Source of the DNA: Propionivibrio sp.
GTDB lineage: Bacteria > Pseudomonadota > Gammaproteobacteria > Burkholderiales > Rhodocyclaceae
Assembly: GCA_003249625.1 (NCBI GenBank)
Contig: QKII01000112.1
Span: 1-8,674, forward strand
Reading direction: 5' to 3'
Length of the DNA stretch: 8,674 nucleotides
Of this stretch, positions 2,653 to 8,674 are shown piece after piece. The position numbers were made by a program, and so were the translations under genes. Below the pieces are notes generated by a model. The model had not been told where the DNA came from. It searched no databases and worked only from the letters and a program-made list of their open reading frames with translations. Position 1 is the first letter of the stretch. Every line of letters begins with the position of its first letter.

Positions 2653-2945
2653 GTGTCCGAACCCTCCGTGCGTTAATCGACGATCATTCGCCCGTCGCCG
2701 CGCTTATAAGGAATTTGTGCTCGCACGGCCCCGCGTGCTTCCACGGGATGACGGTTTGTGCACTATAGACAACGTCATGCGAATTTGCCTGCACCGCGTG
2801 TGAAGGTGTGATGGCTCGCGTCGGGGCCGGGGAAGCAGAGTAGTGCGGCAACAGCATTCGGAACTCAACGCGTCCTCTCCTTTTTGGTTGTGTCGGAGGC
2901 AAGGGAACGCATGGCGGTCGCCTGCGTGACGATGCGTGGATCGTC
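2653..2945 (-). other. Long untranslated leader between the riboswitch and the receptor gene
   Basis: About 290 nt lie between the end of the c-di-GMP aptamer and the receptor start codon, with no convincing gene on either strand. On the minus strand the stretch starts with two hairpins. Near 2877-2882 there is an AAGGAG followed 8 nt later by TTG (2866-2868), which opens a 54-codon frame ending in TAA at 2704. Its product would be rich in Arg, Ser and Cys and looks like no protein I know. A small GC-rich stem (GCACG/CGTGC) lies around 2725-2740. The stretch ends with the GGAGGG ribosome-binding site of the receptor gene. No run of T follows any hairpin on the minus strand, so there is no obvious intrinsic terminator. 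This is probably the riboswitch expression platform plus leader RNA. Confidence 0.5.
2908..2926 (-). other. Second leader hairpin
   Basis: On the minus strand CGCAGGC pairs with GCC-A-TGCG, giving two short GC stems (CGCA/TGCG and GGC/GCC) around a 4-nt loop with a single bulged base. It follows the stronger hairpin of 2926-2947 directly, sharing one base. No T-run follows, so it is not a classical intrinsic terminator. It may belong to the riboswitch expression platform. Confidence 0.35.
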
Positions 2946-2947
2946 AC
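2926..2947 (-). other. Perfect 8-bp hairpin immediately after the riboswitch
   Basis: The minus strand reads GTGACGAT, a 6-nt loop, then ATCGTCAC, a perfect 8-bp inverted repeat that begins one base after the closing GGGTTGC strand of the aptamer. Its position next to the aptamer's closing stem suggests it takes part in switching or stabilises the 3' side. It lacks a following U-tract, so termination would need Rho or another mechanism. Confidence 0.55.
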
Positions 2948-3028
2948 TGCAACCCGGCCGGCATAGAGAAGATATCTCTTTAGCCCCGTGGCTTTGCGTC
3001 CCCGTCTTTCGACAGGTTTGCCAATCAC
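2946..3028 (-). promoter_or_regulatory. Cyclic-di-GMP-I (GEMM) riboswitch
   Basis: Read on the minus strand, the conserved elements appear in the order expected for GEMM-I: GGCAAACC (3022-3015); a stem GTC/GAC capped by a GAAA tetraloop (3010-3007); the nearly invariant ACGCAAAGCC (2999-2990); a GGGGC/GCC helix carrying the loop stem AGAGA/TCTCT (2979-2965); and the closing GGCCGGGTTGC (ending 2949). The GCAA/TTGC outer stem pairs, but its extension further out is weak. The family binds c-di-GMP and controls genes for motility, chemotaxis and surface structures. Here it lies on the same strand as the receptor-cheY-STAS-cheA operon, about 296 nt before the first start codon. Whether binding turns expression on or off cannot be told, because no terminator is evident. 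The match to the consensus is strong enough that I doubt a chance resemblance. Confidence 0.92.
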
Positions 3029-3034
3029 ATTGCT

Positions 3035-3040
3035 TATATA
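3035..3040 (-). promoter_or_regulatory. Candidate -10 element for the riboswitch-chemotaxis transcript
   Basis: TATATA on the minus strand would place the transcription start near 3028, exactly where the aptamer begins. The matching -35 position (about 3058-3063) reads CTCTCG, a poor match to TTGACA. The alternative TATAAC at 3047-3052 would start transcription about 12 nt earlier. An activator-dependent promoter or another sigma factor may be used. Confidence 0.3.
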
Positions 3041-3052
3041 ACTAAAGTTATA
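3037..3052. promoter_or_regulatory. Perfect palindrome in the promoter region of the riboswitch transcript
   Basis: TATAACT-AA-AGTTATA is a perfect 7-bp inverted repeat with a 2-bp spacer in an AT-rich patch just upstream (minus strand) of the riboswitch. It contains -10-like hexamers on the minus strand (TATAAC, and TATATA at 3035-3040). No good -35 sits at standard spacing. A dimeric regulator overlapping the promoter would explain the symmetry; this is inference. Confidence 0.45.
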
Positions 3053-3220
3053 GTCACCGAGAGCGAAGATATCATGAGGATCTTCCCGTGCGAAGATGTC
3101 TCCTCAAGGTTTTTCGGAATTTTTGTGCAGCCAGGATGCATTGGCGGCGGGTCCGTGCACTATCGTACGGGCGCAGGAAGCTTGGCGCTCGTTATGTATT
3201 CGGCTTGTTGCGCAGGCTTC
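3053..3220. other. Non-coding gap between the HAD gene and the riboswitch promoter
   Basis: I see no convincing gene here. The direct repeat GCGAAGAT occurs at 3063-3070 and 3090-3097. A broken stem TGAGGA-TCTTC / GAAGA-TGTC-TCCTCA spans 3075-3106 and is followed by TTTTT at 3110-3114 on the plus strand only. No clear terminator for the leftward prfC-HAD transcript is visible. The open frame starting at 3088 on the plus strand gives an Arg/Cys-rich product typical of a GC-rich shadow. Confidence 0.4.
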
Positions 3221-4030
3221 TCAGGTTGAGGTCTGCGAGTAATGTACCGAGGACGTCAGCAACAGTTCTTGAAGCATTCGCGCAATGCCGTCGAGGTGAA
3301 GCGCCGGAGCGATGCGGTCTGCGACGGCTTTCAGTTCGGGGTGGCCGTTGTCCATGGCGATGCCGAGGCCGACGCCCTTGAGCATCTGCATGTCGTTCAG
3401 TCCGTCGCCGAAAGCGATCGCTTGCGCGGGAGAGAAACCGGTGCGTTCCATGACCCACTGGCAGGCGGTCCATTTGTTGATCGCGCGCAACTGAACGTCA
3501 ACGGCCCACGGATGCCAGCGTACGATATCGAATTCGGGAAAGCGTTGGCGAATTGCCGGGATCAGCGAGGCATCGAGCGATTCGTCGAAGAACAGCCAGC
3601 CTTGAAAGACGTCGCGCCAGCGATGAATGGGATCGTCGGACTGGTAGGCCATGGCCACGCTGTCGAGCGGTTGCGTGGTCATCGGTACTTGGGTGTTGAG
3701 ATAGCCCGAAGTGCCGTCATTGACACCGAAGTAATGTCCCTGTCCGGCTGTCCAGTCAAACAGTTCGGCGAGGCGCTGGCGGGGCAACGGAACGCTGAAC
3801 ACGACATCGTTGCCATGCAGGATGCGTGCGCCGTTCTGGGTGATCGCAAAGGTGGGGCGAATCTGGTCGATGAATGGCTTGGCATGCCCGTGCGCCCGCC
3901 CGGTGGCGATGACGACCGTATGTCCGTCCCGTTTGAGCTGGTCGATGGCAGCGAGCGCGGAGGGCGGAATCGTCAGCGTGCTGTGGTCGAGCAGCGTATT
4001 GTCGATGTCGAAGAAGAATATGCTGGGCAT
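3221..4030 (-). CDS. HAD-superfamily phosphatase, Cof (IIB) type
   Basis: This 269-residue protein has all four HAD motifs: motif I FFDIDNTLLD with nucleophile Asp8 and acid/base Asp10; motif II ATGR (Thr43); motif III with Lys186 (INKWTA); and motif IV GDGLND (Asp209, Asp213), which bind Mg2+. A large insert between motifs II and III (about 80-182) fits the C2B cap of the Cof family, whose members dephosphorylate sugar phosphates, nucleotides or flavin precursors. The substrate cannot be predicted here. The length is normal for the family. It is cytosolic: there is no signal peptide. The ATG at 4030 starts 4 nt after the prfC stop and lacks a strong ribosome-binding site, so translation is probably coupled to prfC. 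The C-terminal tail after about residue 256 is Ser/Thr-rich and unlike the family core. Confidence 0.92.
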   Translation of the reverse strand: MPSIFFFDIDNTLLDHSTLTIPPSALAAIDQLKRDGHTVVIATGRAHGHAKPFIDQIRPTFAITQNGARILHGNDVVFSVPLPRQRLAELFDWTAGQGHYFGVNDGTSGYLNTQVPMTTQPLDSVAMAYQSDDPIHRWRDVFQGWLFFDESLDASLIPAIRQRFPEFDIVRWHPWAVDVQLRAINKWTACQWVMERTGFSPAQAIAFGDGLNDMQMLKGVGLGIAMDNGHPELKAVADRIAPALHLDGIARMLQELLLTSSVHYSQTST

Positions 4031-4034
4031 GGAG

Positions 4035-5672
4035 TCAGTTCAGAACCTGTCCGTGCTCGCGCGAGGCATGGAAACCGACCTTGGTCCACTTCTCGCGCGT
4101 GACGTCGAGGTTGTAACGCGTGCTGGCAAGATACACCAGATTGCCGTCGACGTCTTTTGCCATGCGGTGTTGCTGTTCACGCTCGAAATTCTTGCGCGTT
4201 GTTTCATCGGGGAACGTCAGCCAGCGGGCGGTATGGATGTCCGCAGGTTCGAAGATGGCGTCGACCTTGTACTCGGTCTGCAGGCGCTGTGCGACGACCT
4301 CGAACTGCAGCACGCCGACGGCGCCAAGCAGGAGAGTGCCGCTGGCGAGGTTCTCGAAGACCTGAATCGCACCTTCCTCGCCGAGTTCCTGCAGTCCTTT
4401 CTGCAACTGCTTGCTCTTCAGCGGGTCGCGCAGGCGGGCACTGCGGAAGAGTTCCGGCGAAAAGTAGGGGATGCCCTTGAAGCCAAGCGTTTCGCCTTCG
4501 GTCAGCGTGTCACCGATGTGCAACTGGCCGTGGTTGTGGATGCCGATGATGTCGCCGGCGACAGCATCTTCCATCAGTACGCGCTCATTCGCCATGAAGG
4601 TCAGTGCATTGGCCAGCTTCATCTCGCGGTCCATGCGCACATGCTTTACTTTCATCCCGGACGTGTAGCGCCCCGAACAGACGCGGAAGAAGGCGATGCG
4701 GTCGCGGTGCTTCGGGTCCATGTTCGCCTGAATCTTGAAGACAAAACCGGAGAAGGGCGCTTCCGCCGGTTCGACCATGCGCACGCCCGCATCGCGTGAT
4801 TGCGGGGGCGGTGCCCAGTCGAGCAACGCCTCTAGAATTTCCTGGACCCCAAAGTTGTTGATCCCGGAGCCGAAGAAGACGGGGGTTTGCTGGCCAGCCA
4901 GGAAATCGACGAGGTCGAACGGGCTGCTGGCGCTGCGGATCAGATCCACGTCCTCGCGCAGCTTGCCGACTTCGAGCGGGAATTGCTCATCGAGGAAGGC
5001 ATTGTCGATGCCGTCGATCTTCTCCGCCTCGGTGCGTTTTTCCTCACCCGGGGAAAAGCGCAGCAGACTGTCGTTGCCAAGGTGATAAACGCCACGGAAG
5101 GTTTTTCCCATGCCGATCGGCCAGGTGATCGGCGCGCATTCGATGTTCAGCACGTTCTCGATCTCTTCGAGCAGTTCGAAAGGCTCACGTACTTCGCGGT
5201 CGAACTTGTTGACGAAGGTGATGATCGGTGTGTTGCGCATGCGGCAAACGTCCAGCAGCTTGATCGTCTGCGCCTCGACGCCCTTGGCCGCGTCGATGAC
5301 CATCACCGCCGCGTCTACGGCGGTCAGCACGCGGTAGGTGTCTTCCGAAAAATCCTGGTGGCCCGGTGTGTCGAGCAGGTTGACGGTATGTCCGTTGTAT
5401 TCGAATTGCATCACGGAACTGGTGACCGAGATGCCGCGCTGCTTTTCCACTTCCATCCAGTCCGAAGTCGCGTGGCGCGCGCTCTTGCGGCTCTTGACCG
5501 TGCCAGCCAACTGGATCGCCCCGCCGAAGAGCAGCAGCTTCTCGGTCAGCGTCGTCTTGCCGGCGTCCGGGTGAGAAATGATGGCGAAGGTGCGGCGCTT
5601 GGCGACATCGCGCAGGATTTCCGGAGGGAACGGCGAGGACGAGGTGGAAGAAGAGGTCGGGGTGGAACTCAT
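4035..5672 (-). CDS. prfC: Peptide chain release factor 3 (RF3)
   Basis: RF3 is the translational GTPase that removes RF1/RF2 from the ribosome after peptide release. From the chosen start the protein has 545 residues (E. coli RF3 has 529) and matches RF3 end to end. It has the P-loop SHPDAGKT (33-40), switch I around RGISVTSS (79-86), DTPGH (101-105), NKFD (155-158), the RF3 stretch [16 protein letters not shown] and VGVLQFEVV in domain III. The N-terminus carries a short Ser/Thr/Pro-rich extension of about 15 residues. An in-frame ATG at 5816 would add 48 residues unlike any RF3, and the best -10 hexamer (5711-5716) lies inside that stretch, so I place the start at 5672. The ribosome-binding site there is weak (GAAAG). 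It is followed 4 nt later by the HAD gene. Confidence 0.96.
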
Positions 5673-5710
5673 TGAATGCGCTTTCGACGGGGAGGAAACG
5701 GAAAGCTGGA

Positions 5711-5716
5711 AGTATA
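5711..5716 (-). promoter_or_regulatory. Candidate -10 element of the prfC promoter
   Basis: TATACT on the minus strand, preceded by GG, matches five of six bases of the sigma-70 -10 consensus. Transcription would start near 5703, leaving a leader of about 30 nt before the ATG at 5672. No strong -35 is seen at 17 bp. The position supports the shorter prfC start. Confidence 0.45.
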
Positions 5717-5768
5717 CCGAAGAAGCGTTCCGGGCACGCGATGCCATGAGGTGTCGGGTTGGAAGGGC

Positions 5769-5793
5769 GCAATTGACCAGCGGGCGGTCATTG
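5769..5793. promoter_or_regulatory. Imperfect inverted repeat with a -35-like TTGACC upstream of the AraC gene
   Basis: CAATTGACC and GGTCATTG form an inverted repeat (one extra base in the left arm) with a 7-bp spacer. The left arm includes TTGACC (5773-5778), a good -35 for plus-strand transcription; the -10 position (5796-5801, CAAGAT) is poor. It lies between the divergent prfC and AraC-family genes, so it could be an operator of the AraC regulator or of another factor. Confidence 0.35.
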
Positions 5794-5842
5794 CTCAAGA
5801 TGGAGATCGTCTCCACGACCTGCCCGGAGGTCTTTCCGCGTC

Positions 5843-6670
5843 ATGTCCACCGCTGATCAACGTTTCTGGCGTTCCGCCGCTTTCCCTTTTGTCGAAGCGC
5901 GCTGTGCCCGTGCCAGCCGCAACAGCTACATTCCCCACGCGCACGACAGTCTTTCGATCGGCTCGGTGGAGGAGGGCGAGAGTGCATTCTCGTTACGCGA
6001 CGTCGAGCGAAGCCTCGGTCCCGGGGATGTCGTACTGATTCCGCCGGGCGTCGTGCATTGCTGCAACCCGGTGAAGGATGCGCGCTGGAGCTACCGGATG
6101 CTCCATCTGGATCCTTTGTGGGTGAGCGACGTAATCGGCGAATGGCAGCCGTTCGCCGCCGGCGTCTTCGACGGTTTCCCTGAAACGGCGATTCAACCGG
6201 TTGTTCATTCCCGGTTGGTTATGTTGACCGATTTCTTGTTTGGCGATGCGCCTGAGGCCGAGAAGGAGGCCGAGGTGTTGTTGTTCGTCGGTGATCTGTA
6301 TCGCATCCTCCAGGACCGGGGATGGTTTGCGGAACCACCGGCTGCATCGAGTAACGCGGGGTTGAGCGACGCATTGGCCCTGATCGAATCGCGCTGCACC
6401 GAGCCGTTGCCGCTGGCGATGCTGGCGTCAGTCGCCGGAATGAGCCGCTACCACTTCCTGCGCCGCTTTCGCGACACGGTCGGCATGACGCCGCACGCCT
6501 GGCAGATCGACCTGCGCATTCGCCGGGCGCGCGGACTCCTCGAACAAGGTCTGTCGCTGGCCAACGTGGCAGCGCAGCTCGGTTTTGCCGATCAGAGCCA
6601 TTTTCAGCGCGCCTTCAAGCGGCGTGTCGCGGCGACCCCGAGTGAATACCGCTCACAATCCGTCATTTGA
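5843..6670 (+). CDS. AraC-family transcriptional regulator
   Basis: This is a 275-residue two-domain regulator. Residues about 20-90 look like the cupin-type AraC ligand-binding domain, with YIPHAHDSLSIG (His32, His34) and GDVVLIPPGVVH as the typical strands. Residues about 173-270 are the DNA-binding domain with two helix-turn-helix units: LAMLASVAGMSRYHFLRRFR (191-210) and SLANVAAQLGFADQSHFQRAFK (238-259), followed by the family ending ATPSEYR. The family binds a small ligand and activates nearby genes. The ATG at 5843 has GGAGG 12 nt upstream, rather far but usable. It is divergent from prfC and lies 96 nt before a LysE-type exporter in the same direction; such pairs often have the regulator controlling the exporter. 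The ligand is unknown, but an amino acid or related compound would fit the neighbour. Confidence 0.94.
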   Translation: MSTADQRFWRSAAFPFVEARCARASRNSYIPHAHDSLSIGSVEEGESAFSLRDVERSLGPGDVVLIPPGVVHCCNPVKDARWSYRMLHLDPLWVSDVIGEWQPFAAGVFDGFPETAIQPVVHSRLVMLTDFLFGDAPEAEKEAEVLLFVGDLYRILQDRGWFAEPPAASSNAGLSDALALIESRCTEPLPLAMLASVAGMSRYHFLRRFRDTVGMTPHAWQIDLRIRRARGLLEQGLSLANVAAQLGFADQSHFQRAFKRRVAATPSEYRSQSVI

Positions 6671-6766
6671 CCGGTTTGCTCTTGCTCACAGAGCGCAATT
6701 TCGTTCAAGACGGCCGTTCCGTACTTTGCCAGAGTAATGCCTTCTCAATCTGGCAGGGAGTGGAAT

Positions 6767-7390
6767 GTGGCAGTGTGGCAGCAGTTTCTGGTGATTGCCG
6801 GGGCGCATTTTCTGGCATTGCTCAGTCCGGGGCCGGACTTTTTCCTGATCGTTCGCAGTGCTGTGGTCAACGGGCCGCGCAAGGCGAGCGGCGTCTGCGT
6901 CGGCATTGCTGTCGCCAATGCGTTGTATATCGCTCTGGCGATTGCCGGTGTGTCTCTGCTGCAAACATCGGCGTTGTTCTTCTCTCTGCTCAAGTGGGGC
7001 GGTTGCGGCTACCTCGCCTGGCTCGGCTGGAGATTCCTCTGCTCGTCTGGCGAACTTGTCATGCCGAGCGCCGGCAGCGCGGCGGCGAGTTCGTCCTGTT
7101 GGTGGAAAGAGTGCAGGACCGGCTTTCTCTCCGGCATTCTCAATCCGAAAAACTCGCTGTTCTACGCCAGTCTGTTCTCGCTCGGTTTCAACGCTGCAAC
7201 GCCGCTGGGCATTCGCCTTGCCAGCGGCGCATGGATGTTTTCAGCGGTTTTTCTCTGGGATCTCGGTGTGGCGCATGCTGCAGGCCATCCTTCCGTCATG
7301 CGTCGTTTCCGGGCGCATGTCCGCAGGCTTGAGCGACTGACCGGAGTTGTACTTCTGGTCGTCGCTGCAGCGATTGCCGGGGTGCGTTGA
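6767..7390 (+). CDS. LysE/RhtB-family amino-acid exporter
   Basis: This hydrophobic inner-membrane protein has 207 residues from the chosen start, the usual family length, and about five to six membrane segments. Family signatures are SPGPD (20-24) after the first hydrophobic segment, GVCVGIAVAN (42-51) and NPKN (126-129). Members export amino acids or derivatives using the proton gradient; the substrate cannot be told from sequence here. I chose the GTG at 6767 because it has GGGAG at 6756-6760 with 6-nt spacing and places the first membrane segment at the N-terminus. An in-frame ATG at 6737 would add ten polar residues and has only a weak AGAG upstream. It lies 96 nt after the AraC-type regulator on the same strand, so co-transcription or control by that regulator is likely. 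No T-rich terminator is visible after the stop. Confidence 0.92.
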   Translation: MAVWQQFLVIAGAHFLALLSPGPDFFLIVRSAVVNGPRKASGVCVGIAVANALYIALAIAGVSLLQTSALFFSLLKWGGCGYLAWLGWRFLCSSGELVMPSAGSAAASSSCWWKECRTGFLSGILNPKNSLFYASLFSLGFNAATPLGIRLASGAWMFSAVFLWDLGVAHAAGHPSVMRRFRAHVRRLERLTGVVLLVVAAAIAGVR

Positions 7391-7464
7391 TTGGCGTCTT
7401 GCAGTTGGGAACGAAGTACATGTTGTAAAGGCGCTCTGATCCTGGTGCCGGATTTGGCGGCCAG

Positions 7465-7482
7465 CACGAATTCCGGTTCGTG
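7465..7482. other. Perfect 6-bp inverted repeat between the exporter and sensor genes
   Basis: CACGAA-TTCCGG-TTCGTG is a perfect 6-bp inverted repeat with a 6-nt spacer, followed by AATGGGGG rather than T residues. It could be an operator or an RNA hairpin in the leader of the sensor gene. The 198-bp gap that holds it has no other gene and no convincing promoter; TTGCAG at 7399-7404 is the best -35-like hexamer. Confidence 0.35.
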
Positions 7483-7588
7483 AATGGGGGAATTGCTGCT
7501 AAAGTCCCACCGAAAAAGCAGCCGGACGGCGCGTTGCCTTTCCGGGGCGCTTTGGGATCAAGAATACGTTTCAGCGCTGGACAACCGC

Positions 7589-8674
7589 ATGGGCAAATTC
7601 GCCTTTTTCTTCAATTCGCTCAAAACGCGGCTCACCGTCGGAACTCTGGCCATTTTTCTGCTCAGCCTCTGGACGCTGTCGTTTTACGCCAGCCGCACGT
7701 TGCGTAGCGATATGGAACGGGTGTTGGGTGAGCAGCAGTTCGCCACCGTGTCCCTGATTGCCGACCGCATCGATCACGAGTTCGAAGACCGGATCGACTG
7801 GCTGAGCGAGGTAGCGCTTCAGACAGAGAAAATGATGGTGGAAGGGCCGCAGGCGATCCAGGCGAGTCTCGAAGGCTGGAAGAATCTGTTCGGCAAGTTC
7901 AACGGTGGCACGTTCGTCACTGACAGCACCGGAATGACCATCGCTGCCATTCCTCTCTCGTCGGGGCGGGTTGGGGTGAGCTACGCGGATCGTTCTTATC
8001 TCAGGAAAGTGCTCGACGAAGGGCAGGTGGCGATTAGTGCACCGGTCATGGGTCGGACGTCCGGAGTCCCCGTGATCGTCGTGGCGGTTCCGCTACGCAC
8101 CCGAGAAGGCGTGATCGTTGGGGTGCTGTGTGGTGTCATCAACATGGGAGAGCCAAACTTCCTTGATCAGGCCACGCAAAATCACCATGGCGGCACTGGA
8201 GGCTATCTGCTGGTTGTTCCGCGACAGCGGATGATTGCGACAGCCACGGACAAACGGCGTGTCATGGAGGTAATTCCTGCCGGGCTCAGTCCGCTGTTCG
8301 ATCGTTTTGCAGAGGGGGGTGAGGGGTTTGGTGTCACCATCAATTCGTTTGGCACAGAGGTTCTTTCTGCCGCCAAGCAGGTGCCGGCGGCAGGGTGGTT
8401 CGTCTCGGGGTATCTGCCAACCGACGAGGCGTTCGCTGTGGTTCGTCAGATGCAGCGGCGCATGGTGGTTTCAACGGTTCTTCTGACGCTCCTTGCGGCC
8501 ATGCTGTCCTGGTGGCTGCTTAAGCGCCAACTGGCGCCGATGATGCTTGCTGCCGAATCGCTGGCGGAACTTGCTGGAAAGGAGGACGCGGCTCGACCGC
8601 TTTCTGTTGTTCGCGAGGATGAGATCGGGCGGTTGATTCTGGCGTTCAATCGCTTGCTGGAGAAACTCGGGCAG
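7589..8674 (+). CDS. Membrane sensor with Cache-like extracellular domain and HAMP start (cut by window edge)
   Basis: The first 362 codons are open to the window end with no stop. Residues about 12-34 form a membrane segment. Residues about 40-285 form an extracellular domain of the double Cache type, with SYADRSYL (131-138), then PVMGRTSGVPVIVVAVPL and GVIVGVLCGVI, the usual Cache strand pattern. A second membrane segment lies at about 292-312 (starting MVVSTVLL). The remaining residues resemble the start of a HAMP linker (RQLAPMMLAAESLAEL ... DEIGRLILAFNRLL). Cache domains sense small ligands such as amino acids or organic acids. The output domain is outside the window: GGDEF/EAL, histidine kinase and MCP are all possible. 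The ATG at 7589 is the first plausible start, but its ribosome-binding site is weak. Confidence 0.88.
   Translation, partial: MGKFAFFFNSLKTRLTVGTLAIFLLSLWTLSFYASRTLRSDMERVLGEQQFATVSLIADRIDHEFEDRIDWLSEVALQTEKMMVEGPQAIQASLEGWKNLFGKFNGGTFVTDSTGMTIAAIPLSSGRVGVSYADRSYLRKVLDEGQVAISAPVMGRTSGVPVIVVAVPLRTREGVIVGVLCGVINMGEPNFLDQATQNHHGGTGGYLLVVPRQRMIATATDKRRVMEVIPAGLSPLFDRFAEGGEGFGVTINSFGTEVLSAAKQVPAAGWFVSGYLPTDEAFAVVRQMQRRMVVSTVLLTLLAAMLSWWLLKRQLAPMMLAAESLAELAGKEDAARPLSVVREDEIGRLILAFNRLLEKLGQ

Follow-up and report, generated by a model that had tools for sequence, protein, structure and literature searches.

A c-di-GMP-I riboswitch aptamer upstream of a chemosensory operon in Propionivibrio sp.: an intact RNA element and a plausible operon leader

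Background

Riboswitches of the c-di-GMP-I class are frequently located before motility and chemotaxis genes. An arrangement of this kind was predicted on a contig of Propionivibrio sp., of which a stretch of 8,674 nt (hereafter the window) was analysed as a whole. It raises the question of whether the RNA element is genuine and whether it governs the chemosensory genes following on the same strand. The original prediction held that c-di-GMP sets the levels of a receptor, a receiver, a STAS protein and CheA together. In the open-licence literature, no paper on riboswitches in Propionivibrio was found.

Results and discussion

Identity of the aptamer

A search of the whole window with cmscan revealed a match to the c-di-GMP-I family (RF01051) on the minus strand, from 3032 to 2945, with 82.8 bits (E 1.1e-15) at a family cut-off of 35 bits. 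All 87 of the 87 model positions are covered and no non-standard pairs are marked. The other three matches listed for the window are far under their own cut-offs. The class had been proposed from the order of conserved GEMM-I blocks on the minus strand, and these blocks are present: GGCAAACC at 3022-3015, a GAAA tetraloop capping a stem of the aptamer at 3010-3007 (seen in the sequence and the Rfam alignment), the core block ACGCAAAGCC at 2999-2990 and the closing strand GGGTTGC at 2955-2949. The covariance-model check suggested along with the proposal was significant. The predicted extent, 2946-3028, was correct in position; the model match reaches a few bases further on the 5' side and one base further on the 3' side.

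In the c-di-GMP-I class, the GNRA tetraloop receptor-like motif is CUAA..UAUG. In the aligned sequence, GAAA as the GNRA tetraloop is accompanied by receptor-like GGCUAA and CUAUG. The ligand contacts G20, A47 and C92 (Vc2 numbering) were taken to correspond to positions 3022, 2995 and 2949, and the sequence has G, A and C at these places. A change of G20 to A is associated with cGAMP binding, according to an excerpt of PMC6274999. Because of the G at 3022 (G20) and the A and C at the other contacts, c-di-GMP is favoured over cGAMP as the expected ligand. A chance match or pseudo-hit is extremely improbable, being countered by the E value and the full-length match, and support for it was not found. 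At the sequence level, the aptamer is securely identified as a genuine and ordinary member of the c-di-GMP-I class, with which it shares the full-length match, the GAAA tetraloop, the conserved core and a same-strand gene on its 3' side. No difference from the class was seen in the aptamer, whereas the expression platform that follows is of a non-terminator type.

The chemosensory operon and its surroundings

Downstream on the minus strand, four genes are arranged in one run with gaps of 10-14 nt. The first specifies a methyl-accepting chemotaxis protein (MCP) of 416 aa (1402-2652; PF00015 MCPsignal, E 3.7e-26) and is preceded by an RBS-like GGAGGG at 2667-2662. It is followed by genes for a CheY-like single-domain response regulator (1019-1387; PF00072 Response_reg, E 3e-25), a STAS-domain protein (688-1008; PF13466, E 7.8e-16) and the N-terminal Hpt part of a CheA (3-677; PF01627, E 2.8e-18), which runs off the window end. 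Pfam bears out all four predicted genes, CheA by its Hpt part. This part shares 65.7% identity with the N-terminal region of an orthologue of 775 aa encoded at locus L001; that protein contains Hpt, H-kinase_dim, HATPase_c and CheW domains. Upstream of the aptamer, also on the minus strand, genes for a HAD hydrolase (4030-3221) and release factor RF3 were assigned by Pfam.

At 7484-8674, on the plus strand, the window encodes a protein, truncated at the window end, that matches dCache_1 and HAMP weakly. Its counterpart in a closely related genome (G252, see below; L300, 1901-5500) is a 1199-aa frame in which GGDEF and EAL motifs were recognized by eye. Judged by this counterpart, a c-di-GMP enzyme is probably encoded about 4.5 kb from the riboswitch.

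The leader between aptamer and MCP gene

The gap between aptamer and MCP start comprises 292 nt (2944-2653), and the MCP start lies 370 nt from the aptamer GG, a riboswitch-to-gene distance surpassed in 6 of 77 cases when heuristic gene starts are used. The entire gap is devoid of intrinsic terminators because it nowhere contains three or more consecutive T. A terminator scan also returned none in the window; the same scan misses some visible terminators, namely T-run hairpins in the leaders L240, L247 and L248, but for the window its negative result is corroborated by the absence of T runs from the gap. Just 3' of the aptamer, a perfect 8-bp hairpin (GTGACGAT/ATCGTCAC; 2926-2947, minus strand) is located, which is present in the minimum-energy folds that span the whole stretch.

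On the 5' side of the aptamer, the GC content drops to 0.354 (35%) at 3033-3080. This dip holds a weak candidate for a sigma-70-like promoter on the minus strand, ATGATA-17-TATAAC (3047-3075), with 9 of 12 consensus bases; no promoter was returned by a standard scan, for which the last -10 base must be T. Transcription might start near 3040 from this candidate. A promoter inside the leader, downstream of the aptamer and before the MCP gene, is possible as well.

Two open frames of the gap were evaluated by a codon score trained on the window genes, for which true window frames reach 0.09-0.49 in-sample (5th-95th percentile). The first, TTG..TAA with 54 codons (2704-2868, minus strand), starts 216 nt before the MCP start, at +154. 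It was rejected as an ordinary gene, its score of -0.455 resembling that of wrong frames. A word-based search, which needs shared 5-residue words and is hampered because proteins this short are frequently missed in gene prediction, detected no homologue of the 54-residue peptide. The TTG frame is probably not an ordinary gene. The second, an ATG frame (2857-2684) with its ATG about 19 nt from a GGAG, scored -0.005, which also falls short of the 5th percentile for true frames; it was rejected likewise. Either frame could possibly serve as a leader peptide.

When 581 nt around the riboswitch were compared with 297 genomes of the family of Propionivibrio soli by DNA search, the only matches obtained were to the aptamer, apart from four short ones in other parts of the query. 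Blastn and tblastx comparisons of the gap with the loci collected to that point gave nothing convincing (best tblastx E 0.014), and the sequence 5' of the MCP start has only an 11-nt match in common with the P. soli operon.

Conservation of the operon and origin of the placement

The closest MCP in the genome collection is that of P. soli (58%). When 297 family genomes and 28 from the genus, which includes P. soli, were compared by the HAD gene, G252 was the closest (92%). At E ≤ 1e-60, the MCP was found at 46 places in 39 of the 297 family genomes. Thirty of these 46 places, those with loci, were examined; the CheY gene is next in 30/30, and STAS and CheA genes are present in 29/30. In the 28 loci with upstream sequence, to which L133 and L141 do not belong, no RNA family reached its gathering score and the riboswitch count was 0/28. 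A rescan of the P. soli MCP locus at E ≤ 5 also yielded no RNA family. As for a plasmid origin, a single plasmid record matched the MCP, at 42% over 76% of its length.

Positions 3257-7484 of the window align with G252 at 86%, and the match ends at 3257. No MCP orthologue was detected at E ≤ 1e-20 in G252, a genome that may be incomplete. Since the match stops at 3257 and no MCP orthologue is found there, the segment carrying the riboswitch and the operon is, compared with G252, lineage-specific. The riboswitch placement before the operon is real and, as far as the examined relatives show, lineage-specific; it looks recent.

c-di-GMP-I riboswitches before MCP and other genes

RF01051 was detected in 148 of the 297 family genomes (146 over the cut-off), in 0 of 14 control genomes, and with 24 hits in 16 of the 28 genomes of the genus of G252 and P. 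soli. Downstream genes were surveyed for 85 of 102 gene references, 17 having been set aside on visual inspection as regex hits on the second strand, near-duplicates, or frames that were short or implausible; 13 loci were without motif hit and two hits without gene. The survey yielded DUF1631 (20), peptidase S8 (18), HDOD (5), 4HB_MCP_1 (4), FliE (3) and others.

The riboswitches before 4HB-type MCP genes, L081, L240, L247 and L248, all belong to the genus; the MCP type was taken from its own Pfam table for L081 and assigned by 50-51% identity to L081 for the other three. They resemble the window in genus and in the MCP gene downstream, and the leaders of L247, L248 and L081 are about 300-450 nt long compared to 370 in the window. 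In three genus MCP-leader aptamers compared, 75-76% of the residues are identical to the window aptamer over 75 nt. In all four leaders, however, the aptamer is followed by a T-run hairpin (by eye; the scanner lists L081 only) that the window lacks, and the MCP of the window is of another type. Thus, a riboswitch before an MCP gene recurs in the genus, with another platform and another MCP type.

A more distant precedent is Bc1 of Bacillus thuringiensis. As described in excerpts of PMC11218506, c-di-GMP-I riboswitches act via terminators or sequesters, and Bc1 is a member of the class located before mcpE with two intrinsic terminators. According to the same excerpts, Bc1 failed to respond to c-di-GMP in vitro, and the genes behind it did not track intracellular c-di-GMP; an earlier reporter study cited there had seen a Bc1 effect. 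The window and Bc1 have in common the c-di-GMP-I aptamer, a long leader and an MCP gene downstream, but the window has none of the terminators, and its MCP gene is followed by receiver, STAS and CheA genes. The riboswitch class and its place before MCP genes, as with mcpE, are therefore known already; the new part is a further instance before a chemosensory operon.

Several other arrangements were noted in the family. The genes for DUF1631 are recurrently preceded by c-di-GMP-I riboswitches (20/85), which may hint at a c-di-GMP-related role of this domain. L163 and L167 form a divergent c-di-GMP-I pair about 350 bp apart (G004 contig C18, 88577-88664 minus and 89017-89104 plus), and pairs on one strand, about 2.2-2.4 kb apart, are present in G194, G214 and G235. 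In L183, L189, L203 and, by eye, L167, the first good downstream gene resembles FliE and is about 400-600 nt off. In L200 (G205 contig C39), a hairpin with a run of ten T comes after the riboswitch, as in the genus MCP leaders, and another gene lies downstream.

Folding of the window leader

In an unconstrained fold of the first 191 nt, the aptamer core is paired with a segment around 2915-2903. This candidate anti-aptamer (2903-2915, minus strand) is complementary to the core, with z -2.63 and p 0.01 in a duplex test when a 15-nt core is used and p 0.066 with a 13-nt core. Further downstream, alignment to eight other leaders indicated an RBS-like GGAG (2880-2877) with the TTG (2868-2866). An anti-SD CTCC (2898-2895) faces this GGAG; in the window alone, the pairing has p 0.19 against shuffles. 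With the partners of these two candidate segments, other parts of the leader, near 2823 and 2922, pair at least as well. Most of the GGAG is paired whether the aptamer is forced or the fold is free. At 2671-2664, which overlaps the MCP RBS, the mean unpaired probability is 0.51 with the aptamer forced and 0.37 in the free fold. In these models, the change in exposure of the MCP RBS would be small and opposite to that of an off switch, the site being more exposed with the aptamer formed. The 78-nt stretches from 2876 to about 2763 are C-rich and G-poor, ranking in the top 3-12% of the window.

A leader subclass before exported-protein genes

Cyclic-dinucleotide switches of both ON and OFF type with similar aptamers are known, according to an excerpt of PMC9262584. 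Anti-aptamers were surveyed for 82 aptamers from 103 sources, the remaining 21 loci being without new motif hit (duplicates or regex misses). As a family-wide rule the anti-aptamer was rejected, since 11 of 82 reached p ≤ 0.05 and the median z was -0.29; five of these 11 are leaders outside the subclass described here and have the segment at other positions. In nine leaders including the window, the anti-aptamer lies at +107 to +110 (+119 in L145), and six of the nine have p ≤ 0.05. It is at +107 in the window, and five of the other eight are at p ≤ 0.05.

Two consensus folds were obtained for the nine leaders, from two alignments of the same sequences differing at the 3' end. Fold A contains the aptamer and a helix closing RBS and start codon, fold B the anti-aptamer helix with the RBS free. 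In the RBS-closing helix, 10 cells are changed on both sides compared to 3.3 in shuffles (0/500 as high), and 6 pairs are changed on both sides compared to 2.6 (6/500); the number of pair types is not unusual (106/500), and the helix was derived from the same alignment. The anti-aptamer helix has no both-side changes across the nine leaders because its aptamer side is nearly invariant. For the nine leaders as a group, these folds and base changes support translation being switched off by c-di-GMP.

With a whole-leader model, 11 members of at least 111 bits were found in the 297 genomes, three of them outside the model, and the next score was 73; in the 28 genus genomes, nothing exceeded 57.0 bits. 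The members are L143, L144, L145, L150, L166, L173, L188, L192, L297, L298 and L299, and by eye their downstream genes specify S8-like, ShlB-like, cytochrome-like and other exported proteins. The subclass is predicted to be a c-di-GMP translational OFF switch, with the anti-aptamer (about +107) as one element and, as the other, a covarying helix by which RBS and start codon are closed.

The window is like the subclass in aptamer subtype and anti-aptamer position, but has no exported-protein gene downstream. Against a leader model built without it (R2), the window scored 84.2 bits, above 20 of 20 control riboswitch loci (31.6-68.6) and below three members outside the R2 model (113-159 bits). 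The 20 controls for R2, like the 31 for a post-aptamer model (R3), are a chosen part of the riboswitch loci. Against R3, the window reached 4.0 bits (E 0.1 in 501 nt, filters off), which is not significant; its best-scoring place was the expected one, ending at the TTG. With default filters on 34 sources, R3 listed two members (74 and 90 bits) and several unrelated places at 7-16 bits, one of them at window 6639-6678, but not the window leader. Membership of the window in the subclass, suggested by R2, was not confirmed by R3, which covers the post-aptamer hairpin and the RBS-closing helix.

Does the leader control the operon?

The best explanation overall, to which we assign a probability of about 0.58, is that the aptamer heads the leader of the MCP-CheY-STAS-CheA operon and exerts c-di-GMP control. 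The aptamer is probably transcribed from the AT-rich candidate promoter just upstream and would make up the beginning of a leader of roughly 390 nt in this Propionivibrio relative. The operon would be read from this leader, and c-di-GMP binding would alter its expression. Because a terminator hairpin is missing, the control point would be access of ribosomes to the leader RNA, direct or via Rho on untranslated C-rich RNA. For the sign of the response, there is a slight and tentative preference for lower operon expression at high c-di-GMP, because the segment freed on aptamer folding contains the anti-SD; the fold at the MCP RBS leans the opposite way. The recurrence of riboswitches before MCP genes in the genus, with leaders of similar length, and the anti-aptamer at the same place as in eight other leaders speak for operon control; the long distance to the MCP start, the p of 0.066 with the shorter core, the weak promoter match and the possible internal promoter speak against it. 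The original claim that c-di-GMP sets all four gene levels is partly supported: the arrangement it requires was found, an aptamer upstream on the same strand with neither an intrinsic terminator nor a convincing gene in between, but the absence of the riboswitch from all 28 orthologous loci and the barely shifting MCP RBS exposure count against it, as does the Bc1 precedent before mcpE, unresponsive in vitro in the excerpts of PMC11218506. Control of the operon by its leader is judged plausible.

The missing riboswitch at the orthologous operons, and the missing segment at the syntenic place in G252, would also be expected if the leader were transplanted or a relict, with the MCP operon expressed from a promoter of its own and the riboswitch without control. 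The leader, the RBS-like site at 2880 and the start at 2868 would then once have served an exported-protein gene that was lost. Leaders closest in aptamer subtype indeed precede S8-like or other exported-protein genes (by eye) with starts at about +147 to +160, into which the TTG at +154 falls, yet its frame is without coding signal or found homologue. The leader type was found in 0 of 28 genomes of the genus (best 57.0 bits versus at least 111 for members). On the other hand, the blastn and tblastx comparisons revealed no convincing trace of a lost gene in the gap, the post-aptamer part scores outside the subclass and the aptamer itself is intact. A relict is considered unlikely, while remaining the main competitor of operon control. 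Within operon control, a special case would make use of the 54-codon frame: c-di-GMP would lead to release of the anti-SD, site 2880 would be closed, the frame would stay untranslated and Rho would stop transcription before the MCP gene. The two consensus folds of the nine leaders are near-equal in energy (-41.91 and -41.65), the both-side changes in the RBS-closing helix exceed those of all 500 shuffles, and the C-rich stretches downstream of the site would suit Rho. In the window itself, however, the RBS-closing pairing is no better than in shuffles, little of the GGAG is free in either fold, and the post-aptamer model does not support subclass membership. Such a switch is rated improbable, and so is the full combination in which the riboswitch gates translation of the 54-codon frame, Rho polarity in consequence turns the array off at high c-di-GMP, and the leader was recently transferred from an exported-protein gene. 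Control of the operon by its c-di-GMP-I leader stays the preferred reading.

Conclusions

Should the leader indeed govern the operon, the abundance of an entire chemosensory array would be subject to c-di-GMP, and the riboswitch-free orthologues would offer a comparison that reveals how control of this kind is gained. Even without control, the locus is an example of a riboswitch set upstream of an otherwise riboswitch-free conserved operon.
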